Shown: positions 27,479 through 43,001 of the stretch, piece after piece | How positions within the stretch are numbered: position 1 is the first letter of the stretch | Layout of the letters: each line of letters starts with the position of its first letter | From: Paenisporosarcina sp. HGH0030 | GTDB taxonomy: Bacteria > Bacillota > Bacilli > Bacillales_A > Planococcaceae | Assembly (NCBI RefSeq): GCF_000411295.1 | Contig: NZ_KE150421.1 | Span: 2,418,329-2,482,328, forward strand | DNA length: 64,000 nt | Direction of reading: 5' to 3' | The notes under the pieces: model-generated | What the model was told of the DNA's origin: nothing | The model's input: the letters and a program-made list of their open reading frames with translations, nothing else | The model's database searches: none | Program-made: the position numbers and the translations under genes

Positions 27479-27515
27479 TTTTACCATCCTTAGTCCCTAA
27501 AATTGCAGAAAGGAT

Positions 27516-27802: not shown

Positions 27803-27848
27803 AAAAAAGGGAGAACGCTTCGTATAACAAGCATTCTCCTTCTTTTTT
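27803..27848 (-). terminator. intrinsic terminator of the UvrA-like gene
   Basis: Stem AAGGGAGAACGCTT / AAGCATTCTCCTT with a few mismatches. Long A and T runs lie on either side. The loop (CGTATAAC) resembles that of the mqo terminator. Confidence 0.8.
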
Positions 27849-27956
27849 GATTTAACTTCAAGTTTAAATTACCTCTTTGAAAGATTACCTTGCTCATTCA
27901 ATGAAGTATTAATTCACACCATCTGTTGCTAGTTTGCACAAAACCATCAAGATAAG

Positions 27957-30900
27957 TTAATTATTTTGCTCAAGACTTTGATAAACGGAAATCATGTCTT
28001 GTTTATCCAGCTCACGAATACGATTGAAAATAGGTATATCTTCCACACCATCTGTAAGTAATCTTTCAGCCACTACATCCCTTACTTTACCGGTCAGCCA
28101 GGTTTGTACGTCGAAGCCTTCGATGATTTCCTTCCGACCTTCATTATTGATACCACTAGCATGACAACTCACACAGGGCACCGACAATTTATACACGCCG
28201 TCATGAAGACCATCTTCGGAAATGACTTTCTTCCCTGCACAGAATGGACATTTATGACTTGCTTTAACTTTATTGATTTGGGTAACAATTTTTTTGTATC
28301 CAAACGCTTCGTACACATAAGTTAGCTTTTTATATTTTCCATTGGTGAAATACTTATCGATAATGGTTTCTCTCGTTTCGGTAATATTGGCGAAATCACA
28401 GATTGTGATCTGGTTTTTACAGCTTATTGCTTCGATTTTGCTTCCAATACTGTCCCAGAATGGGAAAGCATTCTGTAAAACGATCTCGTAGTCAATAAAG
28501 CTTGCCTGTTCCAGTTCTAGCATTTTCAGTGCTACTTGCGTTCCCCTAGAAAGGATGGAAACATCTTCAGTAAGCGACATATCGCCGCCAACAACCGCTT
28601 TTAGTTTTTCCAGTTCCGGCAACTTCCCTACTGTTTTTATGACTTGATCGATTGGCTGTTGAATGAGTTCACGAATATCGATCCCACCAAACAATAGTTT
28701 TTTATGATGGTTCAGCACGGTTCCTTCACAAACTGGACAGGTAATCAGTTCTTTTGAAGCTTTCATATGATCTTTAATGATTGATTTCGAAATGAACATA
28801 TAGCGTCCAATGATCAAATTAAAGCCTTCCCATGTTCTCGATGCCTTGCCAGCTTTATCATAAAACGACTTTTCCCAATAACCATATAAAAAAGTATGCT
28901 TTTCCGAGTTAGTCATCTCATTGAAGCTTTTGCTGATATCTTGTCCGAGTTCATTCTTGATCTCATCAAACAGGAATTGCAACTTTGGATATTGATAATA
29001 TTTCAAAACTTCCATGACGTCGGAATGTAATAAGCCATCCCAGAATGGCACAGTTTTGTCCTGAATGACCACATCAAAATTGAATTTCTCAATGACCCGA
29101 CGGCCGGAACAACATGGACAATGGTTTTCTTGATTATAGAAATCGAAGTTTCTTGTATCTTTATTGGTCGGATGGGCAGCAACGATATGGTTGATCAGCC
29201 CGCCCATTTCATAGAGGAAACTATATTGACTATACAAGTGCCTTTCAAGATCAATGGCGATAACGGGTGCGATGGTGTCGGATTCATATTCACCATAAAT
29301 CAACCGAGCCATAGGTGAAAGGCTTTTTAGAATGCCGCCCTTGTAGATATTTTCTGCATTTTTAAAGTAGACCAAATGATTTTCTTCTAAGTAGTGAATA
29401 CCGTTTCGCTGCTTGAGTGTTGAAGAAATGTGCAATGGAGCAACTTCTTCACTATTTTTTTGACAGTAATACTCTTCATGACTGACAACATCAAGATGTT
29501 GAACAGGCGCAAGCTGTCTTTTACCGAAATCAACAATAAAATCAGAGCTTTCTAGCATATATGCATTATGTTCAATCATCATGATGGAGACAGATTCATT
29601 CTCTAGAATGACCCTAACACTATCAATAAATTGGTTTAAAATATTTTGTGACAACCCTTTTGAAGGCTCGTCAAAAATAAACAAAGTATGTGGATTTTTG
29701 GCATTCGTAAACAACTCAGAAACTAAATGAACACATTGAAATTCACCTGTTGATAAAGTTTGTGTTTTTCTTTCTAACGTCAAATAACCAAGTCCAAGTT
29801 TGATCAATAAGCTCAAGCGTTTATGAGCGATGTCTTCCTTAGGGAGTTCATCAATAATATCTTCTATCGAACGTAGAAAAATATCATCTATCTCGTCACT
29901 ATATTTAGTGAGTTTCTTCTTAATATCAAGAAACGTCGCAACGGTTGACCGGCTCGTAATCGATTGATTCCGATCTTGCCCAACCATGACTAGTTTATCT
30001 TTTGGATATCGCTTCATAAAATCTTTGGTGATACACTCATTGACGAGAGTGGATTTACCACATCCAGACTCACCGGTAAAAGTGACAAGTCTATTTTTGG
30101 GAATTCGGATTTCATCTATTTGAATATTTCGGCAGTAAAGATCCTGGAATTGATAGTATCCTGTTGGCATAGCCTGATTTCGTTTCCAGATGATTGGTTT
30201 TGGACGTGGGGATTCTTCTACAATTTTGCCGCCATACTTGCCACTTCCTGGTCCAAAGAACAATTGCTCATCTGTTGCATCGAGTACCGTGTCAGAATGA
30301 TCGATGAGCCAGATTTGATTCTTATACCCTAATTGTTTTATCTGTTCTAAAATTTTCAATAGTGTTTCGTGATCAAGGCCAACCGAGATTTCATCAATAA
30401 TAATAACGGTATTTTCACTGGCTGCCATGAACTCGGCCAAGTAAAGCCGTGTTAATTCCCCGCCTGATAAAGTCCCCATTATCCGATTCAATGTTAAATA
30501 ACCAATATTCATATTGATGATATTTTGGAGAATATGCTGCTTCGCTTCACTAATGTGCAAAACTTCAGCTAATGAGAGAATGGTTTCTATGCTTAAGTCG
30601 TTGAGTTCGGAAATACTATGTGGTTTTCCAAGTAATTCAATCGTATATTGCTCAACTTCTTGGTTATAACGACTGCCCTTGCACTTTTTACATTCCACAT
30701 TTTTGGTCGTGCCACGTCCTTTACAATCCCGACACCAGCCTAATTCATTATTAAATGAAAAAACTTCTGGAGAAAGATTAAATTTTTCAGCAAGGCGAAC
30801 TCGAATTTCTTTAAAAACGCCCGTATGGGTGCCAATGGTAGACCGCGGATTAGAAGAAATCGATGCTCTTCCGAGAAAAAGCACTAAAGGCATGTCTTCC

Positions 30901-31124
30901 ATTTTGATGGCACTGAAATTTGTTTCCATAATTTTAGAAAACAAATACTGATATTCTGCCTTTGGCAATAATGAAACGAGACGCTTCTTGGACTCTTCAC
31001 CAATGGTTTGACTAAAAGTGGTTTTTCCGGACCCAGACAAACCTGCAATTCCTAACGATTGATTTAATGGCAGTACGGCATCTAATTGATTAATGTTATT
31101 AGCAATTAATCGATTTATTTTCAT
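27957..31124 (-). CDS. UvrA-like ABC ATPase with an extra zinc-rich C-terminal half
   Basis: 1055 aa. ABC domain 1: Walker A GLSGSGKTTF (28-37), zinc module CRDCKGRG..CKKCKG (131-149), signature LSGGELTRL (219-227), Walker B IIIDEISVGL. ABC domain 2: Walker A GESGCGKST (351-359), signature LSTGE (457-461), Walker B LFIFDEPSKGL (481-491). This layout is that of UvrA-family ATPases, which bind damaged DNA or, in self-resistance paralogues, drug-bound DNA. Residues 540-1055 are unusual, with CPCC (669), CPVC (796), CPFC (959) and CVSC (984) knuckles and a degenerate signature LSRG (858). It is not the housekeeping uvrA, because no uvrB is nearby and the length and C-terminus differ. Function is unknown. 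Confidence 0.82.
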   Translation of the reverse strand: MKINRLIANNINQLDAVLPLNQSLGIAGLSGSGKTTFSQTIGEESKKRLVSLLPKAEYQYLFSKIMETNFSAIKMEDMPLVLFLGRASISSNPRSTIGTHTGVFKEIRVRLAEKFNLSPEVFSFNNELGWCRDCKGRGTTKNVECKKCKGSRYNQEVEQYTIELLGKPHSISELNDLSIETILSLAEVLHISEAKQHILQNIINMNIGYLTLNRIMGTLSGGELTRLYLAEFMAASENTVIIIDEISVGLDHETLLKILEQIKQLGYKNQIWLIDHSDTVLDATDEQLFFGPGSGKYGGKIVEESPRPKPIIWKRNQAMPTGYYQFQDLYCRNIQIDEIRIPKNRLVTFTGESGCGKSTLVNECITKDFMKRYPKDKLVMVGQDRNQSITSRSTVATFLDIKKKLTKYSDEIDDIFLRSIEDIIDELPKEDIAHKRLSLLIKLGLGYLTLERKTQTLSTGEFQCVHLVSELFTNAKNPHTLFIFDEPSKGLSQNILNQFIDSVRVILENESVSIMMIEHNAYMLESSDFIVDFGKRQLAPVQHLDVVSHEEYYCQKNSEEVAPLHISSTLKQRNGIHYLEENHLVYFKNAENIYKGGILKSLSPMARLIYGEYESDTIAPVIAIDLERHLYSQYSFLYEMGGLINHIVAAHPTNKDTRNFDFYNQENHCPCCSGRRVIEKFNFDVVIQDKTVPFWDGLLHSDVMEVLKYYQYPKLQFLFDEIKNELGQDISKSFNEMTNSEKHTFLYGYWEKSFYDKAGKASRTWEGFNLIIGRYMFISKSIIKDHMKASKELITCPVCEGTVLNHHKKLLFGGIDIRELIQQPIDQVIKTVGKLPELEKLKAVVGGDMSLTEDVSILSRGTQVALKMLELEQASFIDYEIVLQNAFPFWDSIGSKIEAISCKNQITICDFANITETRETIIDKYFTNGKYKKLTYVYEAFGYKKIVTQINKVKASHKCPFCAGKKVISEDGLHDGVYKLSVPCVSCHASGINNEGRKEIIEGFDVQTWLTGKVRDVVAERLLTDGVEDIPIFNRIRELDKQDMISVYQSLEQNN

Positions 31125-31180
31125 ATGTACATCCTCTCTATTTATGTAAACTCAGTCTTTCCACGTTAGAACATCGACAA

Positions 31181-31228
31181 ACTCTTTTATGATACGGGTT
31201 TACCGTGATACTCCAAAATGAGGTTTTA
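31181..31228 (-). repeat. rlmH-end repeat, copy 4 (possible left end of the island)
   Basis: Shares TTATGATACGG with the 3' end of rlmH, then ACCGTGA and AAAATGAGGTTT in the same order as the copy at 33725-33776. It is more diverged than the others. It lies 57 bp upstream of the UvrA-like start codon. Confidence 0.6.
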
Positions 31229-31404
31229 CCATTCAAATAAGTTTTTTTATTTGATTTATAAAACTTCTTAAAAATCTCTGGAAAATACAAATGTAAACCA
31301 AGCTCTATTAATCAGTTACTTCCTTCATTTAAATTTATCACTAATTATGGATTATTAAAATAACATCAGAGTTAAACTATGTGATAGCTATTTTGATAAA
31401 GGAT

Positions 31405-31666
31405 GTGTATTATTTGGATTTTTTCAAGGCCAAGAAACACTTACTACCTTTGAGTGGATTCTTCGAGCTATTGTTGCTTTTTTCTTCTTATTAACTGTTA
31501 CTAGAGTATTAGGTCAGCGTGTCATCTCTCAATTAAGACTCTTGATTTCGCTATTGCTTTAGTCATTGGAAACATTATTGCCCATCCACTATCAGATGAA
31601 CATCTTGGGCTTAAAGTGTCTATCGTTACAACCATTGTATTGGATGTACCATTTACAAAAGGCTAA
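31405..31666 (+). pseudogene. decayed DUF421 (YetF/YdfR-like) membrane protein
   Basis: Reading across frames gives FFQGQETLTTFEWILRAIVA, then FFFLLTVTRVLGQRVISQLR, then DFAIALVIGNIIAHPLSDEH and LGLKVSIVTTIVL. These are the N-terminal blocks of DUF421 proteins. At least two frameshifts are needed: one near 31425, where DFFK must become DFFQGQ, and one in the LLDFAIALVIG block near 31545. The rest of the protein (cytoplasmic domain) is absent. It lies between the repeat at 31181 and the XRE operator. Confidence 0.8.
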
Positions 31667-31667
31667 T

Positions 31668-31708
31668 AACAGTGTAATATTACACTATTAGTTTAATTTA
31701 ACACTGTT
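31668..31708 (+). promoter_or_regulatory. palindromic operator upstream of the XRE regulator
   Basis: AGTGTAATATTACACT (31671-31686) is a perfect 16-bp palindrome. The outer bases AACAGTGT (31668-31675) are repeated inverted as ACACTGTT (31701-31708). Three GTGT/ACAC half-sites within 41 bp, 19 bp before the regulator start, suggest autoregulation. The promoter is probably covered by these sites. Confidence 0.6.
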
Positions 31709-31726
31709 GCATGGAGGTGATGTTAT

Positions 31727-32179
31727 TTGAATAAAGAAACTGTAATTGATTTGATTTCTAAGAATGTTCGACTAATTCGTCTTGAAAAAGGATATTCTCA
31801 AGAAAAAATGGCTACTGTTCTAGGGATTTCCAAAAAGACACTGGTTCAAGTTGAAAAAGAAAGAACATCAATTGGTTGGACGAATGCAGTCGTAGTTTGT
31901 GCCTTATTTAAGGATAGTCAAATCATAGAACACATTTTAGGAGAAGAACCTTTTGAAGTAATTGAAACACTAGCTCACGATGGTATCAATACTCCAAAAG
32001 TAAAAACATTAGGAGGAAAAATGTTTTGGAATGAGATTGCGAAAAAAGGAAAATTTCGAGTACAACAAAATGTGATCAGCCAACATTATCGTATTTTAGA
32101 TGGTAGTGATTATAGGTGGTATAGCACGTTTGAAGAAGAAGAAGTTATGAATCGTTTTTACGAATTAACTAATGAGTAA
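31727..32179 (+). CDS. XRE-family transcriptional regulator
   Basis: 150 aa from a TTG start with GGAGGTGATG upstream. The helix-turn-helix is at about residues 11-65 (NVRLIRLEKGYSQEKMATVLGISKKTLVQVEKER). The C-terminal part (KMFWNEIAKKGKFRVQQNVISQHYRILDGSDYRWYSTFEEEEV) is a small domain seen in related Bacillus regulators next to membrane protein genes. It is followed after 24 bp by a four-helix membrane protein gene, so the pair is likely one regulatory unit. The palindrome at 31668-31708 is the obvious candidate target. Confidence 0.85.
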   Translation: MNKETVIDLISKNVRLIRLEKGYSQEKMATVLGISKKTLVQVEKERTSIGWTNAVVVCALFKDSQIIEHILGEEPFEVIETLAHDGINTPKVKTLGGKMFWNEIAKKGKFRVQQNVISQHYRILDGSDYRWYSTFEEEEVMNRFYELTNE

Positions 32180-32203
32180 TTAAATTTTAAAGGAGAAATT
32201 ACA

Positions 32204-32599
32204 ATGGATAAAAACAAGAGAGTCATTATATTAAACAGTATATTAGTAGGAACTATCGTACTAAATCTGTTTATTTTTACTTCACGTATGCGCTTTTTCC
32301 CTTGGTTTATTGAAGATGCATGGGGATATTTAGGATTATTCCTTACTGCACCAATTTTAATAGGTATTTTTTTCATACTAAGACATTTTCACAAGCAACA
32401 ACTAGTCACAAATATAAATAAGACAATTCCATTGTTTGTCGCAATAACATCATTGATTATTGTGTTTGGGCCGACAACTGACTTTTTAAATATTGTTGCC
32501 CTTTTAATTAACGTAGCTTCAGTATTTTTAGCAACAAATTTCCTATTCAATCAAAATGGGGGGAAAAATAATTATGGATTTAGTAGTCTAAAAAATTAG
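32204..32599 (+). CDS. membrane protein paired with the XRE regulator
   Basis: 131 aa with four hydrophobic segments (about residues 7-25, 38-58, 74-93, 97-113). I cannot assign a family. The start has AAAGGAGAAATTACA in front of the ATG. It is in an operon with the XRE gene at 31727-32179. Such pairs (regulator plus small membrane protein) are common in Bacillales, where the membrane protein may sense a signal or be the regulated product. Function is unknown. Confidence 0.7.
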   Translation: MDKNKRVIILNSILVGTIVLNLFIFTSRMRFFPWFIEDAWGYLGLFLTAPILIGIFFILRHFHKQQLVTNINKTIPLFVAITSLIIVFGPTTDFLNIVALLINVASVFLATNFLFNQNGGKNNYGFSSLKN

Positions 32600-32779
32600 A
32601 GTCGAATCTCTAACAAAGCAGGAAATTAGACTCATTTTATATCGAAATTTGTTTAGCGTATATTTTCGTTAAAATGTGGGCGGGACTCCGTAATGGCACT
32701 AAGTGAGGGTATTGATGCTGTAAATTATGTTTAATAAATAGAAGGGCCCCCTTTACCTAATCATAAAATCAGACTATCC

Positions 32780-33226
32780 CTACGAATTGCTTCTGTACGG
32801 CAGACACTCTTTTCCTTGCCTAATGGTTGCTGTACCCTTCGTTGTTGTATAAGGCGGTGTTTTCGGCAAAACGTTCATGACCAATAGCCGGATTGAATGA
32901 TCTTTATAAAATATTTCATCAAACGAAGGGGTTATGTGTGGATCCGTATTTTCAAATATCCTTTTTTGTAATTCTTCTATGTCTATATCAAATGGAATCC
33001 CTATTAAAACATTTTCTATTCCCTGCATTTTGTCGGCCACGCCGAAAACAACGCTGCCCCCGCCGCCATTTGCCATACAAACAGCGTATTTAATCATTTT
33101 ATTGACGTTTTCCTCCACAGCACTAAAATTCCATTGTTTAAAGTCTAGGTCCTGTGCCTCAAAATCATCTGCAATATGATGATCCAATTGCTGAATGATC
33201 TCCATGATTTCGCTTTTATTCTTCAT
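32780..33226 (-). pseudogene. AlbA/Schlafen-type ATP-binding domain, C-terminally truncated
   Basis: 148 aa that begin as a full AlbA_2 domain (PF04326, COG2865). It has LDFKQWNFSAVEENVNKMIKYAVCMANGGGGSVVFGVADK with the family GG core and ends TIRQGKECLPYRSNS. Family members normally continue for 200-400 more residues after RxGxxCLP. Here a stop follows at once, and the downstream DNA does not continue the protein. It is thus a stump rather than a complete gene, although a short product could still be made. The ribosome binding site (AAGGAGGATATTCTT) is intact. Confidence 0.65.
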
Positions 33227-33488
33227 AAGAATATCCTCCTTTCCAGCAAAATCGATCTATATACCTTGCAAATACGTTAACCAATGCTTATACAAAAAAG
33301 GCAGTCCCTTATTACAAATACACTTGTAAGAACTACCTCTTATTATATTTATATGTTTGTTTCGTCATGGCTGTTTATAAAGCTTTTTGAAATTGCACGC
33401 CGGCTCCATACTTGCATAAAGCCCCCGTGGTTCATTGATCCATTCAATCGGCTTCATCATACATTTTTCAACACATGCAATTCCCAAC

Positions 33489-33570
33489 TTTCTCCAAACC
33501 GACACCTGCATTTTTCGCTAAAGTAATACTTTTGAATAGACTAATCCTTTGCTAACGTTATCAGTAAATG
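33489..33570 (+). repeat. dispersed repeat copy 2, possible insertion-sequence end
   Basis: Matches 23318-23400 in the same orientation over about 80 bp at roughly four bases in five. No transposase frame is adjacent. The flanking 33227-33488 shows no gene. Confidence 0.5.
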
Positions 33571-33724
33571 TGAAAACGGATTTATTATGTAAGGATTTCA
33601 AAGGAAGGCTTACGTGCCACTCCTCAATATCTATAAAAGAAGAAAGTTGATGAACAAACATGGAAACTTAAACATTTATCAATACTCCTTGCACAGGTAC
33701 CTGAAATTTTGTTAAACAGATTAG

Positions 33725-33776
33725 AACCTCATTTACTTATGATACGGTTCTCCGTGACTAATCTAAATGAGGATTA
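33725..33776 (-). repeat. rlmH-end repeat, copy 3 (att-like)
   Basis: The first 26 bases (33725-33750) are identical to 42131-42156, the end of rlmH. The core CTTATGATACGG is, on the other strand, the codons for PYHK plus the TAA region. An inverted arm TAAATGAGG (33764-33772) follows and pairs with CCTCATTTA. The stop codon of the histidine kinase gene (33758-33760) lies inside this repeat. Confidence 0.8.
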
Positions 33777-35836
33777 TTCAAATTGTTTTTAGAATAGAAT
33801 TTAACAAAAAAAGTAGTGCCATCTAATCCAGTTTGAATTTCAATTTTCGCATTATGACGAGCAGCAATGGCGTAACAAATGCCTAACCCCAAGCCAGTGC
33901 CATTATCTTTGGTTGTATAGAATGGAGTACCCAGTTTCTCTAATATTTCTTGCCTGATACCTTCTCCTTGATCCCGCACTGCAAGAACCACACAATTTTC
34001 ATCTTCTATGTAGGTACTGATGGATAGCACTTTCCCTGTGCTCATCGCTTCTAAGCCGTTACGGTATAGGTTTATTACTAATTGCCGTATCTCATTACGA
34101 TTTAAAAGCAATTCTGGGATGTCTTTAGTATCGAATTGAATAAGTTTATTTTGATTAAATGTATCAATCTTTATTAAAGGTGAAATATCATAGATAATTG
34201 AATTTAAATCTAACATCTGTAAATCAGATGTCCTTGTATTTCCCATTGAAAGAAATTCAGTAATAATGGCATTGGCACGGTCAAGTTCTTCAATCATTAA
34301 ATTAAAGTGGTCATTATGTTTTTCAAATTCGTCCTCTTTTTTTAATAACTGTAAGAATCCTCGTACCGTTGTCATTGGATTTCTAATCTCATGGCTGATA
34401 CCTGCTGCCATTTGCCCTATTAATTCTAAGTTGGAAAACCTTCTCAGTTCATTTTCATATTTCTTTTTTTCCGATACATTTTTAAATAGGCAACAGATAC
34501 CCTCGTCATACGGGTAAGCCACTACTTCGTAACAATAATCTTCAGAGGTTGCGGGAATATCGAAATGTACAGGAACTCGCTCTAACATCGCACGATGAAA
34601 TTCTTTATACATGACGGTATCTATACTTTTCGGGAAGATCTCCCATATATTTTTGCCTAATACATCTTTTGCTGCTTTCTTTTGTGGTAGATATTGATGT
34701 TTATTTATGTAAATAAATTCCCATTCTTTATTCAAAGCAAAGAACCCATCCGTAATACTTTCAATAACACTTGTAACTTTTTCATTAGCAGCGGCTAGTT
34801 CCCTTGTTCGCTCTTCCACCATGTTTTCAAGTTTGTCCATATCTAACAAGTTTGAAAACGTAGGAGCTGTGGCATCAACTATAGATTGTGCCAGTTGAAT
34901 TTGGGATTCATCGTAACTGTGAGTTTTTCTCACCAAATCCACAACTGTTATTACCCCTAATACTTCTCCCATTGAAACCAATGGAATCATAAGCAGCCCC
35001 TTTATATCTTCACTTGGGATTTGAATTATATTTTTAGTTATAATAACCTCTTGGATCATGGCTTCATAGCTATGGTCCATTCTTATGTTATTAAGGGTTT
35101 CACTCCACTCTGCTTCCGTCCAATTACAGTCTTTACTTAACTTCGTTAATGTAATTGTTTTTTTTTCTAACGGTTCTAGGAGGTGGGCAGCAATATTTTT
35201 GCTATCTAAAATCTTTCCTAAGTAGAAAAAGCATTTATCGAGACTTTCCTGTATCGAGGAACACATCGATAAATCACGTGTAACATTAAGCAACAACTGC
35301 TTTTCGGCAATAAGGTTTTCCTTTTGTGTTAAATTATTCACGTTTTGAATTGCGACTGCAGCCATATTCACATAAGCTTCAACACTTTGAATTTCCGACT
35401 CTGTCAAGTTCATTGGTGTTCCATAATCAAATAAAAAAACTAGACCAAATAACTCTTTCTCAAATGAAATAGGCAGAACTAATAAGGATTTAATTTTGAA
35501 GGCTTCAACTGTTTTCGGATCCGGTCGATTATCTTTTGAGGTATCCGGGATGTGGATGGTTTTTTTAGTTTCAATCACTTCTTTGGCTAGTAAGTCTATT
35601 TCAGGATCAATTAGTTGCGTATCGAGCGCCATGCCATTCATGAGTTCAGGTTTTCCTGCAAATCCTCTAAATGTTCCATCTTTTTGAGGTAAATAAATAC
35701 CAACGGAATTACATTGAACAATCTCTTCAGATATTGCACTCGTTACACGCTGTAATACTTCACGTAGTTCTAACTTTGTATTTATTATTTTTGTTATATT
35801 TGCAAGCCTAGAATATCTTGTTTGTTCCATTAACAT
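33758..35836 (-). CDS. soluble GAF-GAF-PAS sensor histidine kinase
   Basis: 692 aa without membrane segments. GAF domain 1 lies at about 20-170, GAF domain 2 at about 190-340, then a coiled-coil linker (MVEERTRELAAANEKV) and a PAS domain at about 360-475. HisKA carries His482 in GISHEIRNPMTTVRGFLQL. The HATPase boxes are LYRNGLEAM, DQGEGI and DNGTGLGLG. The kinase core (HEIRNPxTTVRGFLQL) is of the sporulation-kinase type, so it could feed Spo0F, which is inference. Its last codons and stop are made of the att-like repeat at 33725-33776. This suggests that the gene end was fused to the repeat on insertion. Confidence 0.85.
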   Translation of the reverse strand: MLMEQTRYSRLANITKIINTKLELREVLQRVTSAISEEIVQCNSVGIYLPQKDGTFRGFAGKPELMNGMALDTQLIDPEIDLLAKEVIETKKTIHIPDTSKDNRPDPKTVEAFKIKSLLVLPISFEKELFGLVFLFDYGTPMNLTESEIQSVEAYVNMAAVAIQNVNNLTQKENLIAEKQLLLNVTRDLSMCSSIQESLDKCFFYLGKILDSKNIAAHLLEPLEKKTITLTKLSKDCNWTEAEWSETLNNIRMDHSYEAMIQEVIITKNIIQIPSEDIKGLLMIPLVSMGEVLGVITVVDLVRKTHSYDESQIQLAQSIVDATAPTFSNLLDMDKLENMVEERTRELAAANEKVTSVIESITDGFFALNKEWEFIYINKHQYLPQKKAAKDVLGKNIWEIFPKSIDTVMYKEFHRAMLERVPVHFDIPATSEDYCYEVVAYPYDEGICCLFKNVSEKKKYENELRRFSNLELIGQMAAGISHEIRNPMTTVRGFLQLLKKEDEFEKHNDHFNLMIEELDRANAIITEFLSMGNTRTSDLQMLDLNSIIYDISPLIKIDTFNQNKLIQFDTKDIPELLLNRNEIRQLVINLYRNGLEAMSTGKVLSISTYIEDENCVVLAVRDQGEGIRQEILEKLGTPFYTTKDNGTGLGLGICYAIAARHNAKIEIQTGLDGTTFFVKFYSKNNLNNPHLD

Positions 35837-35959
35837 TCACACAGTCTCCAATCAATTGGGTTAGCGTTTATTATTTACGTCTTAGTGATCTTTCAAAGGA
35901 AGGTATCCAAGTTGAAATAAAGAATACTATATTATTAATAAAAAAGATTCCATACTGAA

Positions 35960-36353
35960 TATCTTTTTACATGGGATAGGGATTTGGATTACTTATTTGA
36001 ACCGATTAATGAAAATGTATATGTACTAGCAATATGGGACACAAGTTGGAACTCTTATAACAACTGTTATTTTATTGTACAGGAAGTTGATAGATTTAGG
36101 TAAAAAGGAGCATTCCATATACCTTGAACAAGCTCTAAATAGAATAGGCAAATCACCAGAAGATGTTACTCTCATCTTAGCAACCCACGGTCATAAGGAT
36201 CATGTACAAGAAGCTACTATTTTTAAAAATGCTTCTTTTGAAGAACACGATGTATCCTCTCCGTCCCTTCCAAACGATAGCCTTATCCTGAAAACATTAT
36301 CGAATTGCATGAGTAATAGCCTTGTTTTTTGTTCGATAAAACTCTTTATTTGA
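35960..36353 (+). pseudogene. metallo-beta-lactamase-fold hydrolase remnant
   Basis: Two frames joined by a shift near 36075 give YLFEPINENVYVLAIWDTSW, NSYNNCYFIV, LIDLGKKEHSIYLEQALNRI and VTLILATHGHKDHVQEATIF. THGHKDH is the HxHxDH metal motif. No start codon is seen in frame, and the protein degenerates after the FKNA position, where family members continue for about 150 residues. This is the broken N-terminal part of a gene whose rest is missing. The 36075-36353 reading frame alone is not a real gene. Confidence 0.75.
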
Positions 36354-36690
36354 AATTGGTGTTGTTCCCTACGACCACATTAATTGGTAATTTCCAAACC
36401 AATATCGATTTCTTTAACATAGTAACTACTTCTTGGAGCCCTCCACATTCTCATTAAATATATATTCTTATTATTTCTTTTGATAAAAAAGTATTTATTA
36501 GAACGAGTGTCTACTCAAAACGAAATGTATGAGCATATACATATTGAATATCCAATAATTTGTTACGTTTTCGATGTTAAGAAGATAAGTGTAATTTTAT
36601 TACGCGAGACCATCATTTTCTTCCCTACTGAAGTTTAACCTCTCATTTTTTTGGAGAATAAAATGAATTCGATAAAGGAGGAATAGCAAA
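36354..36690. other. intergenic stretch without a recognisable gene
   Basis: AT-rich, with only short frames. It must contain the promoter of the SET-domain gene, but no convincing boxes are visible. Confidence 0.5.
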
Positions 36691-37290
36691 ATGATGCATC
36701 CGAATACCGAAATTCGGTATGTAAATGAGAAAGTAGGAATTGGAGTTTTTGCAACAAAATTAATTCCTAAAGGAACCATTGTCTGGATTAAAGATGATTT
36801 AGATATTGTTCTTGATGAGTCATATATTGAAAGTCTTGATGATGTTCGAAAAGAGTATATATATAAATACTCATATTTAGATAATGACGGCGAATATGTT
36901 CTCTCTTGTGATCACGCAAAGTATATTAACCATAGCTTCAATCCAAATATAGTAGATACAGTATATGATTTTGAGTTAGCTGCGAGAGACATTCAACCTG
37001 GCGAACAAATAACATGTGATTATGCTGCATTGGGTGAAGATGAAGATTTTGAATGTATACCTGAAGAAGGCACTTCAAGAACAAAAGTGACAGCAGATGA
37101 CTATCTAGTTTTATACGAAGAGTGGGATAAAATGGCAATAGAGGCGTTTAAGTATTTCAACAAGGTGGAACAACCTCTAAAACATATGATCAGTGAGCAA
37201 TATACCGATAAAGTAAATGCGGTTGCTAATGGAACCGAACCACTAGATTCAATCCTTACTTTATTTATCGATGATGATGATGAAGACTGA
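36691..37290 (+). CDS. SET-domain protein (putative protein lysine methyltransferase)
   Basis: 199 aa. SET motifs appear in order: the GIGVFATKLIPKGTIVW start (SAM site), NHSFNPN at about 76-82 (the NHSxxPN motif) and DIQPGEQITCDYA at about 96-108 (the ELxxDY motif with the catalytic Tyr). The C-terminal part is helical and ends in an acidic run (DDDDED). SET proteins transfer methyl groups from SAM to lysine. Bacterial members are scattered and their targets mostly unknown. A strong ribosome binding site (AAAGGAGGAATAGCAAA) precedes the ATG. The gene stands alone inside the rlmH-linked island. Confidence 0.85.
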   Translation: MMHPNTEIRYVNEKVGIGVFATKLIPKGTIVWIKDDLDIVLDESYIESLDDVRKEYIYKYSYLDNDGEYVLSCDHAKYINHSFNPNIVDTVYDFELAARDIQPGEQITCDYAALGEDEDFECIPEEGTSRTKVTADDYLVLYEEWDKMAIEAFKYFNKVEQPLKHMISEQYTDKVNAVANGTEPLDSILTLFIDDDDED

Positions 37291-37348
37291 GATTGAATTT
37301 TCGAAATTAGAATAACAGTTTTAAAGGCTTTAACAAAACACGACCTAA

Positions 37349-37516
37349 AAACAAATTTTTGAATGCTACTATCGAGTTACAAATACCAAAAACGTTCGCG
37401 GCACAGGTCTCGGCATGGCTATTTCTAGAGATATTATTGAGGCACACGGTGGAAATGTTATATTGTCGAGTAAAGTTGGCATCGGTACAACCGTGGAAAT
37501 TCGTTTAAGTGAGTAA
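37349..37516 (+). pseudogene. C-terminal fragment of a sensor histidine kinase
   Basis: The frame reads KQIFECYYRVTNTKNVRGTG, LGMAISRDIIEAHGGNVILS and SKVGIGTTVEIRLSE, then stop. This is the end of a HATPase domain, with the G2 box RGTGLGMAI. Nothing upstream continues it, so only the last 55 codons remain. Confidence 0.85.
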
Positions 37517-37522
37517 AAGATA

Positions 37523-37563
37523 AAAGGGCTATCTAGTTGGAAAAATAACTAAAAAAGCCCTTT
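37523..37563 (+). terminator. intrinsic terminator after the kinase fragment
   Basis: Stem AAAGGGCT / AGCCCTTT with a second inner stem (TAGTT / AACTA) and a TTTCTTATT tail. It probably belonged to the complete kinase gene. Confidence 0.65.
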
Positions 37564-37621
37564 CTTATTGAAAAAAACAGTCCAAGTAAAATAATTAAAC
37601 TGTTCCCTTTATTACTTCCTA

Positions 37622-37672
37622 AACCTCATTTACTTATGGTAAGATTCACCGTAGCAGGGCTAAATGAGGTTT
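37622..37672 (-). repeat. rlmH-end repeat, copy 2 (att-like)
   Basis: AACCTCATTTACTTATG is identical to the rlmH end. The following bases differ at a few positions (GTAAGATTCACCG against ATACGGTTCCCC). The inverted arm TAAATGAGGTTTATT follows, as in the copy at 33725-33776. It lies after the stop of the DUF4317 gene. Confidence 0.75.
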
Positions 37673-37722
37673 ATTCTCTTTTCCATTTTAGATAGCCGGC
37701 TGAAGGACCACCCAACTCTCTC

Positions 37723-38916
37723 CTACTCCAACAGCTCTTCCGGAAGCAGCTTAAATCCTTCAATCATCGTGTCTTCTTCCACCTCGATCAATAGACAGCG
37801 TTTGCCATTGTAATTGATCTGTTTGACATATCTCAAGTCTTGCGGGCTGATCGCAATATTCGCTACTTTCGTGCTGATTTTGATTGACTTGGACGCGTAG
37901 CTTGGAACGACATGGCTTGCTTTCATTTCATAGTTTTTGTCTTCAACCACCTGCTGAAAGGCCATTTCCACTTTTTCCGTACTCACATCTTTTACGCCGC
38001 TCGCCTTCAACACACGTGCAACCTCTATAGAATCCAAAGTAGGAGTACTCCCTACTTCGTCCTCACCCTCTTTTTCCACCAATAACATATTATTGATTTC
38101 ATCATATACACCGGCGAGGGTTTTCGAATTTACTTCATCACCAATTACTGCTTTGACAATTTCTTCAAACACCGCTTTATCTTCCTCGGCAGTCATGATT
38201 TCATTGCCGTTCAACACATTCTCGATAAACTGGAAATCTGGTTTATTCGCTTTGCTCGCAGCATAAAGGACGTGATTGATGTCTGCGGCGTTGTCCGTGA
38301 AGCTAGGGAACAGAAATCCACCAATTGGAGTGGCAAGTTTAATGACGGGATCAGCCAGCAGACTGGACTTAAACTCTTTCTCGACAAAATCAAACACCAG
38401 TGAACGTTTCGGCAGTTCGGTTTGATTCATGCTACTGAGGATAAAAGGAGTGGTATACACTTCATCTCGAGCGTCTATTTCCGTTTCATCGGGATGACGT
38501 TTCGTCGTTTTATAATAGTTTCCACGAATGAATGTGATGACTATGTCCTTTTCATATTGGCTATACTGAACCATCTTCAAGGCGATGCGTTGCATACCCG
38601 CTTTCCATTCCCCGACATCATCTGCATGAAGTCCCTCAAATAAAAGGTGCTGCGTATGGTCCGTTTGCCCCTCTCCTTGACGCTGGAACTTCACCTCAAA
38701 CAGCTTCACATCTAGTTTCCCACCTAAAACCTTTTTAAAGTTGGCAAGGAACAGCTCTTGTTGCTCCCGGTCCAGCAAGGAAAATGAGCGGCTCTCCTCA
38801 TGATAGATTTCACTGCTTTCTTGCTTGATATAAACGTTATAAATATCAGCTATTTTAAGCAAATCAGTATCCATCTTAAAGTGTTTGCGAATCTCTGCTA
38901 TATCCTTATTATTCAT
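37723..38916 (-). CDS. DUF4317-family protein
   Basis: 397 aa from the ATG at 38914-38916 (GGGAG lies about 12 nt upstream; a TTG four codons earlier is possible but too near the site). The sequence follows DUF4317. The N-terminus MNNKDIAEIRKHFKMDTDLLKIADIYNVYI and the block GKLDVKLFEVKF appear first. The middle is a VITFIRGNYYKTTKR domain, then PIGGFLFPSFTDNAADINHVLYAA. These are cytoplasmic proteins of unknown role found in many Firmicutes. It is a lone leftward gene inside the island. Confidence 0.8.
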   Translation of the reverse strand: MNNKDIAEIRKHFKMDTDLLKIADIYNVYIKQESSEIYHEESRSFSLLDREQQELFLANFKKVLGGKLDVKLFEVKFQRQGEGQTDHTQHLLFEGLHADDVGEWKAGMQRIALKMVQYSQYEKDIVITFIRGNYYKTTKRHPDETEIDARDEVYTTPFILSSMNQTELPKRSLVFDFVEKEFKSSLLADPVIKLATPIGGFLFPSFTDNAADINHVLYAASKANKPDFQFIENVLNGNEIMTAEEDKAVFEEIVKAVIGDEVNSKTLAGVYDEINNMLLVEKEGEDEVGSTPTLDSIEVARVLKASGVKDVSTEKVEMAFQQVVEDKNYEMKASHVVPSYASKSIKISTKVANIAISPQDLRYVKQINYNGKRCLLIEVEEDTMIEGFKLLPEELLE

Positions 38917-39057
38917 CTCTAATTCCAACTCCCTGGCAAGTAAGATCCGTGTTATCTACAAAAAAAGAGCATCCAAAGCTACAGTTTAGCTTCTGACACC
39001 CCTTTATTATAACAATATTTAAAATGAAGAAAGGAACACAGTCAATTTTGGATCGAG

Positions 39058-39120
39058 TGACTCCTGTGGGAGCAGCGTAGCGACGTGTCCAGTGAGGCCC
39101 GCGCGGAAAGCGTTTGCCTG
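39058..39120 (-). repeat. partial copy of the GC-rich interspersed repeat
   Basis: On the minus strand it contains ACGCTTTCCGCGCGGGCC and GCTCCCACAGGAGTCAC, the same kind of sequence as 12968-13155. Only part of the unit is present. Confidence 0.55.
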
Positions 39121-39130
39121 TTTCTGTCTC

Positions 39131-39192
39131 TGCATCGCTGTGCTAGCTTCGAGACATGAAAAGGCGTTGCATCGCTGCGCTAGCTTCGAAAC
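39131..39192 (+). repeat. two near-identical 25-bp direct repeats
   Basis: TGCATCGCTG(T/C)GCTAGCTTCGA(G/A)AC occurs at 39131-39155 and 39168-39192. The GC content is higher than in the neighbourhood. It directly adjoins the partial interspersed repeat. The wider gap 38917-39328 shows no gene. Confidence 0.75.
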
Positions 39193-39328
39193 CTAACGAG
39201 AACCATCCCCTGTTTCATAAGCATTCTTGCTTCATCAAACACAAGAAATGTCCCCGTGTCTCAGTCGTAATAATCTCAATTATTTAAAAGGAATTTTATA
39301 GTATATAATGGACATATAATAAAAAAGA

Positions 39329-39351
39329 GAGAAGTGTTGTAAGCACTTCTC
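39329..39351 (-). terminator. intrinsic terminator after the small basic peptide gene
   Basis: An 8-bp stem GAGAAGTG / CACTTCTC, followed by TCTTTTTTATT on the minus strand. Confidence 0.75.
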
Positions 39352-39371
39352 CCCATGTAACCTCTACCGTC

Positions 39372-39440
39372 AGGGTGGTGGTTGTCATTGTGGATTATTT
39401 ATGAGAACCACCCTTTTGCTTGCGACGGCGCAGGGTGGTT
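39372..39440 (-). promoter_or_regulatory. three complementary arms that allow alternative hairpins
   Basis: Plus-strand arms AGGGTGGT (39372-39379), AACCACCCT (39406-39414) and AGGGTGGTT (39432-39440). In the leftward transcript the middle arm can pair with either outer arm. One alternative overlaps the 3' end of the peptide reading frame; the other lies between its stop and the terminator at 39329-39351. Confidence 0.5.
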
Positions 39441-39547
39441 TTCTTGTCTTCTAGAACATTCTTCCGAAAAAAATATGCGCTTACTTCACGCAGAACTCCC
39501 TTCAGAACTTCTCTGAGAATTTCAAGAAATGTTTCCGTGATTATCAC
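39395..39547 (-). CDS. short basic peptide with a perfect SD but no clear start codon
   Basis: About 50 aa in frame: IITETFLEILREVLKGVLRE, then VSAYFFRKNVLEDKKTTLRR and RKQKGGSHK. It has an amphipathic helix followed by a very basic tail. The ribosome binding site AAAGGAGGTGATAA is perfect. In frame after it there are only GTG (inside the site), ATA, ATC and ACG. The GTG at 39545-39547 is given as a formal start; ATC at 39539-39541 would have better spacing. I recall similar short reading frames in other Bacillales genomes but cannot name a family. A type I toxin-like or leader peptide is possible. It is flanked by a terminator and alternative hairpins. Confidence 0.5.
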   Translation of the reverse strand: MIITETFLEILREVLKGVLREVSAYFFRKNVLEDKKTTLRRRKQKGGSHK

Positions 39548-39994
39548 CTCCTTTCCTAACAAAGGAAAAGAAGATTGACAACCCGGCAACCCCAACAATA
39601 TACAGCTAACAACTCCATTCTATCGTTTACTACCTATCTAAAAACCTATCAATCTTCGACAAATATCAGGGAGTGCCAGGAACGAATATTAGAACTTTCT
39701 AATTTCATCGACTGTCTTTCGATCTAATCGTTTAATAATTTTACGCTCTCCCGTTATACGATACGGAGGCAAAAAGAAAATAAAAAAGTTAGCTTTTTTA
39801 GTGATTAACAGTAATTCAATTGAGGCTCATGAGATACACCCTATAGAGCATTTCTTTGTAAAGAGGAATGTTTTTATTTTTGCCTTAATAACTTATTAAC
39901 AATAAAAACATTATAAAAATAAATAAAAATTTATTGTTTATCGATAAATAACATGTTAATATCTAAAAAACAATACTTATGAGAGGTGATTTTC
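39548..39994. other. intergenic stretch, possible gene remnant
   Basis: Mostly AT-rich. On the minus strand at about 39700-39810 a frame reads LLITKKANFFIFFLPPYRIT then GERKIIKRLDRKTVDEIRKF, which looks like the C-terminus of a lost gene. I cannot identify it. No other feature is seen. Confidence 0.3.
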
Positions 39995-40474
39995 ATGAAA
40001 CCTGAAACACTATTTTTAAAGTTAGCGGTTGTTCTTATGGGCTTTCCAGTTCTTGCTTTATGCATCTTTTTGGTACCTGAGTTAGGTAATATTGCAGCAA
40101 AATTGCTTCCAGAGTTTGATTTGATCAAATACCTCGTTACTATCGTTTTTGATGCATCGGCGATTCCCTTTTACTTTGCTTTGTATCAGGCTTTTAAACT
40201 TTTACGCTATATTGATAAAAATAAAGCTTTCTCGCAACTATCTGTATATTCTTTGCGGAATATCAAATTCTGTGCCATCACAATCAGTACCTTGCATGTG
40301 CTAGTCTTGCCACTCTTCTATCTCTTTGCGGATAAAGACGACGCCCCAGGTGTCATCTTTATCGGATTGTTTGTTCCTTTTGCTTCAATGATGATTGCAG
40401 TCTTTGCTGCTGTTCTTCAAAAGCTATTAAAAAATGCCATCGATATAAAATCAGAAAATGATTTAACGATATGA
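39995..40474 (+). CDS. DUF2975 membrane protein, YoaS-like
   Basis: 159 aa from the ATG at 39995 with GAGAGGTGATTTTC in front; the GTG three codons earlier lies in the ribosome binding site. It has four hydrophobic segments, and the block AFSQLSVYSLRNIKFCAITIS matches DUF2975. The stop is followed after 10 bp by the YozG-like regulator gene, as in the B. subtilis yoaS-yozG pair. The membrane protein and the small helix-turn-helix protein are thought to work as a unit, but their target is unknown. Confidence 0.82.
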   Translation: MKPETLFLKLAVVLMGFPVLALCIFLVPELGNIAAKLLPEFDLIKYLVTIVFDASAIPFYFALYQAFKLLRYIDKNKAFSQLSVYSLRNIKFCAITISTLHVLVLPLFYLFADKDDAPGVIFIGLFVPFASMMIAVFAAVLQKLLKNAIDIKSENDLTI

Positions 40475-40484
40475 GGTGAAACCA

Positions 40485-40706
40485 ATGGCTATTATAATCA
40501 ATATTGATGTGATGTTGGCTAAAAGGAAAATGAGCGTAACGGTACTTTCGGAGAAGGTTGGCATCACGATGGCGAATCTTTCAATATTGAAAAATGGAAA
40601 GGCAAAAGCGATTCGATTATCAACTCTAGAGGCGATTTGTAAATCATTAGAATGTCAGCCTGGAGATATTTTAGAATACAAAAGTGACGAAGACAGTCAA
40701 AGGTAA
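40485..40706 (+). CDS. small XRE-type regulator, YozG-like
   Basis: 73 aa from the ATG at 40485 with GAGGTGAAACCA in front. It reads MAIIINIDVMLAKRKMSVTV, LSEKVGITMANLSILKNGKA, KAIRLSTLEAICKSLECQPG and DILEY, a complete Cro/CI-type helix-turn-helix of the HTH_26 kind. It follows the DUF2975 gene by 10 bp and is translated from the same mRNA. It probably regulates this pair or the DUF4153 gene that starts 71 bp further on. Confidence 0.87.
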   Translation: MAIIINIDVMLAKRKMSVTVLSEKVGITMANLSILKNGKAKAIRLSTLEAICKSLECQPGDILEYKSDEDSQR

Positions 40707-40777
40707 GAGAGTTTGATTAATAAACATTGTTGAGGAAAGTAGGACTTAATATGACAATTATTAAGGGAGGTATAATC

Positions 40778-42025
40778 ATGGACAGTAACAATTTAATTAT
40801 TGAAAATATTGCTAATCCCCATGAGCTGGAGAGAATGTTTAGAAATGACCCCAAAGCCTTTAAAAAGTCATTCTCAGACGCATGGGAACAAAATCCTGAT
40901 TCTCAGGTTCTTGGCATTTGGTATGAAAGATTGCATTTCAAGGAGACGGCACATTCAGAAAAATCTTCCTTGCTTCAAAAAGGTTTCTTATTCATGGGCA
41001 TTTTAGCCATTCTGGCCGGGATAAGCACCAGAATCATTTTCCATTTTGTCGAACAAGAAGCAATTGCTCCAATTAACCTGGCTTTTGGTATTATTCCCTT
41101 TATTGCTGCCTATTTTGTTTACAATAATACTCCGAAAAAAAGTGTTATTTATTCCCTTGCAGCGTTGTTCCTAATTTCCGGGTTTTATCTTAATATGCTA
41201 CCATTAAATTATAAAGACAGTATTATCCTTGCTTATTTACACCTTCCCATATTCTTATGGGTATTGGTAGGGCTTGCATTTACAGGAAATGAATATTCAA
41301 AAGGCAGTACAAGATTAGCCTATATTAAATTTAATTTGGAATATTGTATTCTCTACGCCAGCATGGCAGTTAGCGGAATGGTGCTAGCGGCATTAACCAT
41401 GCAGTTATTTAGCTTTGTTGGCTTGGATATAGAAGAATTCTATTTTAGTAATATCGTTTTATTTGGTGCTGCCGCTCTCGCTATTGTGGCTGCATACCTG
41501 GTATCAATGAATCTTAATCTTGCTAAGAATATTACACCATATATAGCTAAAATTTTTAGTCCTCTTGTTCTGATCACATTGTTGGTCTATCTTATAACGG
41601 TTATATGGGTCGGAAAAAATCCATTCTTGGACCGCAATTTCCTGATAGCCTTCAACGGAATACTCCTTGGTGTATTGGCCGTTACCATATTTTCTATTAC
41701 CGAAAGCGACTCAGACGAGAAAAAGAACATTTCAGATTATATAAATTTTTCCTTAATTGTTCTTGCGCTTATCATTGACAGTGTGGCTTTGTCAGCCATC
41801 GTGTTCAGACTTTCTTCTTATGGGATTACACCAAACAGACTTGCTGTTTTAGGTGTAAACATACTTATCTGGGGAAATCTTATTTGGATTATGGTCTCAT
41901 ATATGCGTTTTCTACAAAACAAGACCGGACCTTCACCCATCCAAGATGCGGTCACTAAGTATTTGCCAGTTTACGGACTTTGGGCGGCTTTCGTTACATT
42001 TACTTTTCCTTTCTTTTTTAATTAG
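40778..42025 (+). CDS. DUF4153-like polytopic membrane protein
   Basis: 415 aa from the ATG at 40778-40780, selected because GGGAGG is 8 nt upstream. A soluble N-terminal part of about 70 residues (NPHELERMFRNDPKAFKKSF) precedes about ten membrane segments. The C-terminal SALSAIVFRLSSYG-like block (here DSVALSAIVFRLSSYGITPN, then RLAVLGVNILIWGNLIWI) fits DUF4153. Family function is unknown. It follows the YoaS/YozG-like pair on the same strand and ends at a strong terminator. The pair may control it. Confidence 0.75.
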   Translation: MDSNNLIIENIANPHELERMFRNDPKAFKKSFSDAWEQNPDSQVLGIWYERLHFKETAHSEKSSLLQKGFLFMGILAILAGISTRIIFHFVEQEAIAPINLAFGIIPFIAAYFVYNNTPKKSVIYSLAALFLISGFYLNMLPLNYKDSIILAYLHLPIFLWVLVGLAFTGNEYSKGSTRLAYIKFNLEYCILYASMAVSGMVLAALTMQLFSFVGLDIEEFYFSNIVLFGAAALAIVAAYLVSMNLNLAKNITPYIAKIFSPLVLITLLVYLITVIWVGKNPFLDRNFLIAFNGILLGVLAVTIFSITESDSDEKKNISDYINFSLIVLALIIDSVALSAIVFRLSSYGITPNRLAVLGVNILIWGNLIWIMVSYMRFLQNKTGPSPIQDAVTKYLPVYGLWAAFVTFTFPFFFN

Positions 42026-42069
42026 AAAGGCTATATTAATGTAACGGATGTTGATCTTCCTTATAAACA

Positions 42070-42111
42070 CCAAAAATGAAAAAGTTATACTCATAACTTT
42101 TTCATTTTTGG
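42070..42111. terminator. strong bidirectional terminator between the island and rlmH
   Basis: Perfect 19-bp stem (CCAAAAATGAAAAAGTTAT with its complement) around ACTC. The plus-strand tail is CTTTTTATTTTT. It ends the DUF4153 gene and can also stop transcripts from rlmH. Confidence 0.9.
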
Positions 42112-42130
42112 CTTTTTATTTTTCTAAAAA

Positions 42131-42160
42131 AACCTCATTTACTTATGATACGGTTCCCCT
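42131..42160 (-). repeat. att-like site at the 3' end of rlmH (copy 1)
   Basis: On the minus strand GAACCGTATCATAAGTAA encodes the RlmH C-terminus EPYHK and the stop. It closely resembles the SCC attachment core at the end of staphylococcal rlmH (orfX), GAAGC(A/G)TATCA(T/C)AA. Bases 42131-42156 recur exactly at 33725-33750 and nearly at 37622. Confidence 0.75.
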
Positions 42161-42618
42161 TTAATAATCCGAAAAGCTCGATATACTTGCTCCACCAACA
42201 CCAATTTCATCAATTGGTGTGGCAAGGTCATTTTTGAGAATGACAGCTTTTCATCAGAGCGCTTCATCACGTCTTCATGCAGACCGAGTGATCCTCCGAT
42301 GACGAACGCGATTTTGCTGCGACCATATGTCATGAGTGACTGTAAATCATCCGCTAGTTGTTCAGATGATTTCATTTTGCCCTCGATTGCCAATGCGATG
42401 ACATAAGTGTCCGTTCCGATTTTTGCCAAAATGCGTTCGCCTTCTTTTTTCTTGACGATTTCCATGTCAGCATCACTTAAATTTTCCGGTGCTTTTTCGT
42501 CTGCCACTTCAATCAAATCTATTTTTGCGTAACTTCCCAATCGTTTTGTGTATTCTTCAATACCCATTTTTAAGTACTTTTCTTTTAACTTCCCAACGGA
42601 AATTATTGCGATATTCAC
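42139..42618 (-). CDS. rlmH: 23S rRNA pseudouridine-1915 methyltransferase RlmH
   Basis: 159 aa, the exact family length, from a GTG at 42616-42618 with AAGGTGG upstream. SPOUT-type motifs are [69 protein letters not shown] and the conserved C-terminus KGEPYHK. RlmH methylates pseudouridine 1915 in helix 69 of 23S rRNA on assembled 70S ribosomes. Its 3' end is the known integration site of SCC elements in staphylococci, and here too it carries a repeated sequence. The start lies directly beside the DnaA-box cluster. Confidence 0.97.
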
Positions 42619-42708
42619 AGGTTATCCACCTTTACACTTTATTTACAAACACGCTATCCACAGAAGTTATACACATATCCACAACCACAAACTATATATA
42701 GTAGGCAA

Positions 42709-42873
42709 TCATTCGTTCGCCACTAAATATATTGCAGCGACATCACAGTAATCGCATTTTGTGGATATCTTTTCTTCATCTGTGAGTTCCGTTAAAATCG
42801 GGAAGGTATTTTGCTCAGCCACAAACATGTCCAATGCATGTTCTATATGGGTTTGACAGCATTTAATTTTCAT
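42709..42873 (-). CDS. CxxH/CxxC small zinc-ribbon-like protein
   Basis: 54 aa. Reading leftward from the ATG at 42871-42873: MKIKCCQTHIEHALDMFVAE, then QNTFPILTELTDEEKISTKC, then DYCDVAAIYLVANE. One CQTH (CxxH) and one CDYC (CxxC) pair could bind one metal ion. This is the CxxH/CxxC protein family that sits beside rlmH in Bacillales. AAAGGATG lies about 10 nt before the start. It is too short for many gene finders. The function is unknown. Dense DnaA boxes lie on both sides. Confidence 0.85.
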   Translation of the reverse strand: MKIKCCQTHIEHALDMFVAEQNTFPILTELTDEEKISTKCDYCDVAAIYLVANE

Positions 42874-42961
42874 TTTTCTTCATCCTTTCGGTTTTCGAAC
42901 AATTCAATTAGTTATACACAATTCACACAACTTTATCCACAATCTATTTTAACAAACAAAA

Positions 42962-43001
42962 AGCGAGTAGGAAAGGTACGGGTTCGCACCTTCTACTCGC
43001 T
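42962..43001 (-). terminator. intrinsic terminator of htrA
   Basis: Stem AGCGAGTAG / CTACTCGCT extended by AAGGT / ACCTT. TTTTTGTTTG follows on the minus strand. Confidence 0.85.

Follow-up and report, generated by a model that had tools for sequence, protein, structure and literature searches.

A probable composite, ccr-less SCC-like island at the 3′ end of rlmH in Paenisporosarcina sp. HGH0030

The stretch analysed here, 64,000 nucleotides of Paenisporosarcina sp. HGH0030 (contig NZ_KE150421.1; hereafter the window), carries at the 3′ end of rlmH an island that we take, with a probability of roughly 0.8, to be a composite of the pseudo-SCC type, that is, resembling a staphylococcal cassette chromosome (SCC), lacking a cassette chromosome recombinase gene (ccr), and built by successive Ccr-type insertions. 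Copies of the rlmH end, empty sites in relatives, and segments shared above core identity together point to such an island of at least five segments. SCC elements sit in rlmH, are flanked by repeats, and carry their own ccr. The island of the window is inserted at the 3′ end of rlmH and has flanking direct repeats with terminal inverted arms, but neither ccrAB nor ccrC is present in it. It consists of tandem ccr-less segments bounded by attachment (att) sites, and the site is empty in relatives. The island is thus outside SCC proper and fits the description of a pseudo-SCC. The rlmH-anchored, stepwise-built and ccr-less island proposed in a preliminary description of this DNA is supported by the results given below.

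rlmH (42139..42618, minus strand) encodes 159 amino acids (SPOUT_MTase, 199.7 bits), and its best matches are L009 (97%) and L010 (96%), both loci of Paenisporosarcina (Planococcaceae). Its 3′ end is an attB-type site. The 26 bp at 42131-42156 in this end have an exact copy at 33725-33750, a near copy at 37622-37651, and a diverged copy at 31187; the four copies share one orientation, and the arm TAAATGAGG comes after the copies at 33725 and 37622. This pattern, described earlier from the sequence alone, was borne out by repeat comparison and by a profile that was trained only on the copies of other genomes, allowed indels, and was searched against the window and 20 other loci. The profile matched the window at 33774-33724 (E = 3e-14), 37672-37621 (E = 5.6e-13), and the rlmH end at 42161-42128 (E = 1.4e-8). 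The diverged fourth copy (31226-31186) has one extra base in its core, is missed by an ungapped profile, and gives no exact match to our search pattern. It is probably real but weak, because its profile match has E = 0.006 and the best unrelated match in the window E = 0.23. A possible half att (32686..32710, minus strand), consisting of an element-end arm and TTACGGAG, is weak (E = 0.51) and may be a chance match. A 14-base core searched with two mismatches gave 34 matches in the genome versus 32 in the control and is therefore an unspecific probe; it was replaced by a degenerate 17-mer of the rlmH end and the profile. The 17-mer has six matches in the whole genome, and its reversed-pattern control none.

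We compared the best 80 of 508 rlmH loci found, with up to 10 kb downstream covered per locus, so that long elements and those bearing a large serine recombinase (LSR) are under-counted (L043, L047, and L063 have an LSR but no second copy). Nine of the 80 loci showed mqo, which lies at 25985..27487 on the minus strand of the window (Mqo match); its positions are tblastn alignment starts. In L010 and L065, ca. 0.3 kb separates it from rlmH, and in L079 0.7 kb; the empty sites sought among relatives therefore exist, since rlmH and mqo adjoin in these three loci. The spacing is 2.5 kb in L038, L041, and L033, 6–8 kb in L087, L077, and L024, and 14.7 kb in the window, so that the constant rlmH–mqo gene order considered in the preliminary description is not the case. 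The DNA between rlmH and mqo in L010 continues past a kinase cassette of L041 (81% identity, core 70%), and the window has the same cassette. At L050, an insert of 4.1 kb (10585-14256) with no LSR match is precise and contains DzbA, DzbB, and a SIR2-domain gene; at L061, an insert of 8.3 kb contains a type II methyltransferase and a CcrB-like LSR whose coding sequence is broken into two frames. Past the att sites at L050:14599 and L061:18726, the sequence matches the DNA directly after rlmH in L042, L052, L053, L031, L080, and L015, beginning within the first 16 bases and at ca. 80–92% over 600 bp.

Whereas three modules had been proposed, shared stretches split each of the first two into at least two units, which together with segment 3 gives at least five segments. 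Segment 1a (39785..42117) lies next to the rlmH-proximal att site (42128..42161, minus strand) and contains a DUF2975 gene (39986-40474), an HTH_26 regulator (40476-40706), and a membrane protein (40727-42025). It shows 92% DNA identity over 2.4 kb with Psychrobacillus sp. OK028 (L019), in which it begins at the second distal att, while the core of the window and L019 is 71–72% identical (71% over the 7.3 kb alignable of the 10 kb before rlmH) and rlmH 79%. Segment 1b (37633..39049, minus strand), with a DUF4317 gene (37723-38928), is common to the window and L020 and ends at an att in both, here the second copy (37621..37672, minus strand). Segment 2a (35855..37620) contains a SET-domain protein (36691-37290) and a metallo-beta-lactamase-fold fragment (36075-36353). 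Segment 2b (33733..35854, minus strand) is a cassette with a GAF-GAF-histidine kinase gene (33758-35836), inside whose end lies the outer arm of the third att copy (33724..33774, minus strand). The kinase segment is 84–88% identical to Lysinibacillus L036, Sporosarcina L038, L039, and L041, and Viridibacillus L077, versus 70–73% in the core, with 17 of 20 listed pairs covered by the core comparison. In the window, L036, L039, and L041 the segment stops at an att, whereas it does not in L038 and L077. Segment 3 (31227..33723) contains a helix-turn-helix (HTH) protein (31727-32179), a membrane protein (32204-32599), and a Schlafen AlbA_2 gene (32780-33226), and is followed by the fourth att copy (31186..31226, minus strand).

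The distribution of the motif in the rlmH loci is one-sided. The degenerate 17-mer gave 49 further matches in the 80 loci, all downstream and all in the direction of rlmH; none was inverted, none lay upstream on either strand (779 kb), and the reversed pattern gave none downstream. A copy was present in 34 of the 75 loci covered for more than 3 kb. At 16 bits, a 44-column profile found 78 forward and 4 reverse matches downstream and none upstream; as it was trained on the loci in which matches were then counted, the upstream zero is a control and the downstream count is not. The site being nearly palindromic, each of the 10 reverse-strand matches of at least 12 bits coincides in part with a forward copy. 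With a threshold of 20 bits, a copy is present in 45 of the 75 loci, among them loci of Lysinibacillus (13/17), Sporosarcina (8/13), Psychrobacillus (6/11), Planococcus (4/9), Planomicrobium (4/5), Paenisporosarcina (3/4), and Viridibacillus (2/3). With the window included, 70 bounded cassettes were delimited in 46 of 76 loci, with a median of 2.3 kb and a range of 0.3–9.7 kb; an LSR match was present in 5 of them and absent from the other 65.

By inspection, the att copies read AACCKCAYTTAG-n6-TTACGGNGAACCGTATCATAAGTAARTGMGGTT. Since the search pattern fixed only the middle 17 bases, including the GA and the C, and left the arms free, the conservation of the arms is independent evidence. Of the 24 positions compared around the GA, the 49 distal copies pair at 13.2 on average and 77 rlmH ends at 6.7; when any of 16 other centres is taken, the copies reach 4.3–7.6, so that the symmetry peaks at the GA. 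In the window, the second and third copies are quasi-palindromes with 17 and 16 of 24 positions paired, and the rlmH-proximal site, with 6, is not palindromic. The copies thus have the central GA, the symmetric half-sites, and the essential C of TATCATAA of Ccr-type att sites; PMC10581047 reports the central GA for CcrAB sites, and GA and TATCATAA are reported features of Ccr att sites. Similarly, inverted repeats in attR and in the circular form are described for the ECC of Enterococcus in PMC6222049.

A mechanism modelled on CcrAB would account for this architecture. An LSR, presumably of the Ccr type, would join the palindromic att of a circular cassette with the rlmH end, with the crossover, by analogy, at the central GA, and cassettes would enter one after another at this end. 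Each insertion would give rlmH new, equivalent last few codons, a stop, and a right arm, and would push the old rlmH end outward, preceded by the left arm of the cassette (AACCKCAYTTAG-n6-TTACGG). Copies in the same direction, palindromic everywhere but in rlmH, would result. The enzyme would be supplied in trans by another element or by an element since lost, and the cassettes would be moved by it in trans.

The absence of a visible ccr was borne out genome-wide: PF07508 (LSR) has no match in this genome, the CcrB model has three matches with a best of 50.5 bits in a 244-aa frame, and an LSR like that of L026 was found at E = 1e-60 in 18 of 151 genomes of the family and in none of the 9 that belong to the genus. 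Across these 9 genomes, the CcrB model gave weak matches (best 87 bits versus a cut-off of 900) in frames of at most 253 aa, except for a 532-aa LSR frame in G003 (72 bits), and among the 8 searched, PF07508 matched only in G001, G003, G006, and G007. With a set of 18 LSR proteins from 30 loci, matches at rlmH were obtained for 9 of the 80 loci; those in L037, L059, and L066 are partial. Of the six LSR stretches scanned from rlmH loci, all had NCBIfam CcrB as the best match, L026 with 454 bits; since the cut-off is 900 bits, the LSRs of the relatives are, judged by these scores, Ccr-like and not CcrB in the sense of NCBI.

A real possibility, to which we give clearly less than even odds, is that full-size SCC-like elements, each with its own ccr, lost this gene by deletion and left the pieces as remnants, and that no cassette moved alone. 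LSR-bearing elements do exist at rlmH, namely those of L026 (9.4 kb, which also carries a D5-type helicase and Shedu (SduA)) and L061 (8.3 kb), and LSRs adjoin rlmH in L043, L047, L063, and L085. This genome has an LSR C-terminal scrap beside a second array (L125:12035-12367; DUF4368 match below the cut-off, tblastn E = 1e-13), and junctions off att occur. On the other hand, there are small units, bounded by att on both sides, that recur by themselves. One is the 779-bp cassette of L062, with one open frame of 209 codons; it recurs in L058 at 91% identity (core 76%), and no further match of at least 500 bp between L062 and L058 was found among the matches listed. In L036, the kinase cassette by itself fills the 2.2 kb that separate the rlmH att from a distal att, with no LSR match, as in L041, and the L050 insert is likewise clean and without an LSR match.

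A second array lies away from rlmH. Further att-like copies were found in this genome at C1:100892, C2:410957, and C2:415266; profile matches were strong at 415266 and C1:100892 and weak at 410957 (E = 0.095) and near C2:416296 (E = 0.38). The C2 copies bound a 4.3-kb unit with an M24 peptidase, an EutH family permease, and a cupin regulator, and a 1-kb unit with one protein (sub-threshold FG-GAP match), which the LSR scrap adjoins. The genes flanking this array are 8.2 kb apart here and 1.5 kb apart in G005. G003 has an empty rlmH site, and its second array contains the 4.3-kb unit and the DUF4317 segment; DUF4317 is therefore in the rlmH array of one species and in the second array of another. 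A different contig of G003 carries the 1-kb unit again, and homology there ends inside the att core. G061, assembled in one contig and the only other genome of the species compared, has the same island at 98.7–99.4% identity, except that 40006-40688 (683 bp) is absent there. The island is therefore no assembly artefact and is common to both strains seen, in which it looks settled.

Shared downstream stretches at least 10 points above core identity were tested for a boundary at most 40 bp from an att in both genomes, leaving out segments that start at rlmH in both. Such a boundary was present in 25 of 134 shared stretches (7 ends and 18 starts), versus means of 0.014 ends and 0.028 starts (ca. 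0.04 in all) and maxima of 1 and 2 in 500 random placements. This result bears on an explanation we consider unlikely, namely a spread of the segments through natural transformation or conjugation, with homologous recombination between the arrays flanking rlmH and with the att copies as inherited boundaries. The high identity of the shared segments and the 109 of 134 without an att boundary in both genomes would suit it, but the excess of att boundaries over expectation would not, and some of the att-bounded cases are joined to flanks that differ between the two genomes. That the repeat is an ordinary terminator or a dispersed repeat is practically ruled out by the one-sided distribution, with six 17-mer matches in the genome and none upstream of rlmH in relatives, as well as by the rlmH end, which folds no better than shuffles (z = −0.05), by a separate strong hairpin after rlmH (42070-42111), and by the absence of the four copies from the 13 sites of a terminator scan (whose loops of 3–8 only would keep a long-looped hairpin from appearing), even though the copies at 33725 (−15 kcal/mol, z = −3.6) and 37622 (−16.8 kcal/mol, z = −2.9) can fold. 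The repeat is thus not scattered as a terminator-type repeat, the possibility raised earlier.

Several observations weigh against an island built by successive Ccr-type insertions. Beyond the single LSR C-terminal scrap, no recombinase was found in this genome, and the LSRs of relatives score far below the CcrB equivalog cut-off. The 25 boundary cases are not independent, as 12 concern the Planococcus/Planomicrobium flank (L050, L061, L067, and L029), 5 the kinase cassette, and 8 others, and the 109 remaining shared segments have no att boundary in both genomes. The layout in G061 is the same, so that no movement is seen. A 2757-bp difference between the strains near C1:100 kb (L169:4718-7474, present in G061 and absent here) ends off att; lying ca. 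37 bp from it and looking like a short-homology deletion, it was rejected as proof of mobility. In the second array of G003, neither a 1.5-kb difference nor the DUF4317 junction is at an att. Since several junctions do not end at att, other deletions and fusions also shape these islands.

As a tentative and rather doubtful extension, drawn by analogy with integrons, the rlmH end in Planococcaceae may be a serine-recombinase cassette platform, on which small cassettes of one or a few genes, with one Ccr-type half-site per end, would form ordered same-direction arrays in many genera, be shuffled between genera, and be moved by Ccr-like enzymes on rarer, occasional elements.

Between the last att and mqo lies a gene for a UvrA-like ABC ATPase (27957..31124, minus strand; 1055 aa). 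Its best curated NCBIfam match is UvrA, far below the cut-off, and tblastn (E = 1e-10) matched it to none of the 80 rlmH loci; the gene may represent one more insertion, with no att that can be recognised. PADLOC recognised no complete defence system among 9 proteins of the window, and matched only this ATPase (mad3, 106 bits, and weaker ATPase models) and the HTH protein (HTH_VI, 29 bits). No Rfam family was matched in 27000-43000. The gap between segments 1a and 1b contains a small basic open frame without a Pfam match (39395-39598) and, near it, hairpins without an Rfam match (39326-39354); two near-identical 25-bp direct repeats, whose starts are 37 bp apart, lie at 39131-39192. At 31420-31680 we noticed by eye what is presumably a decayed YetF/DUF421-like coding sequence. 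A plasmid search with 37600-42120 of the window returned 34 records, all at 60–80% identity and none covering 80% of the query. In viral contigs, there was one match to the att pattern (IMG/VR contig L145:3560-3586), and on this 6.2-kb piece neither the window proteins (with rlmH among them) nor the LSR set had a match. Elsewhere in the window, ca. 7 kb (16293-23327, genes 16635-22581) is absent from G061; its junction is some tens of bases away from a weak att-like match (E = 4e-4 in G061; 16248-16222 of the window, E = 0.77), and this difference was not used as mobility evidence.

The closest known systems are as follows. The pseudo-SCC and composite islands of Staphylococcus, such as that of S. 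haemolyticus WCH1 (PMC3637587), are alike in the rlmH (orfX) anchor, several terminal repeats, the lack of ccr, and mixed origins. That island has 40 kb, five IS431, and mecA, while the one in the window has 11 kb and, among its family matches, no recognised resistance gene, no specific search having been aimed at them; unlike in WCH1, small units of the type found in the window recur singly across genera. SCC-like rlmH islands of Bacillales, including Planococcus antarcticus (PMC10061031), mostly share the site and also have rlmH-end repeats and tandem composites; empty sites were confirmed for three of them, and their cargo is conflict systems. What led to them was a Pol-SSB pair next to a helicase and a recombinase, none of which was detected in the window cassettes by the family searches made. 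The ECC is alike in its site at the rlmH 3′ end, att of ca. 50 bp, TATCATAA core, and inverted repeats of attR and the circular form, with multiple attR in 16 of 32, but the 32-kb example carries ccrAB_Ent and other cargo than the window (PMC6222049). ccrDE islands use rimL and carry ccr, so that Ccr islands can use other sites, and ccrDE is said there, citing Xiao et al., to move SCC from rlmH without travelling along (PMC10581047). IME8 of L. sphaericus uses yolD, not rlmH (PMC13239906). The earlier view that SCC biology is little described outside Staphylococcaceae thus holds only in part, since the ECC and the islands of Bacillus, Planococcus antarcticus, and others, most of them at rlmH and some of them tandem composites, are in print. 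Among the matches listed in open-licence literature, no title or abstract concerned such arrays in Paenisporosarcina or family-wide in Planococcaceae; the closest among them is PMC10061031, with one Planococcus and tandem composites elsewhere.

What is new is the scale in Planococcaceae (cassettes in 46 of 76 loci, most of them without a recombinase match) and the second array away from rlmH. Three cassettes of relatives that were examined carry anti-phage genes (DzbA/DzbB and a SIR2-domain gene in L050, Shedu SduA in L026, and a type II methyltransferase in L061), and on these gene assignments the rlmH site of L050, L026, and L061 is at least partly a defence locus. SCC elements are studied because they carry methicillin resistance; that their site, arms, and central dinucleotide also occur across Planococcaceae, mostly on small cassettes with no recombinase match, would reveal the make-up of a wider pool of SCC-type cassettes, and a test becomes possible of whether a single Ccr-like enzyme can mobilise many unrelated cassettes in trans.

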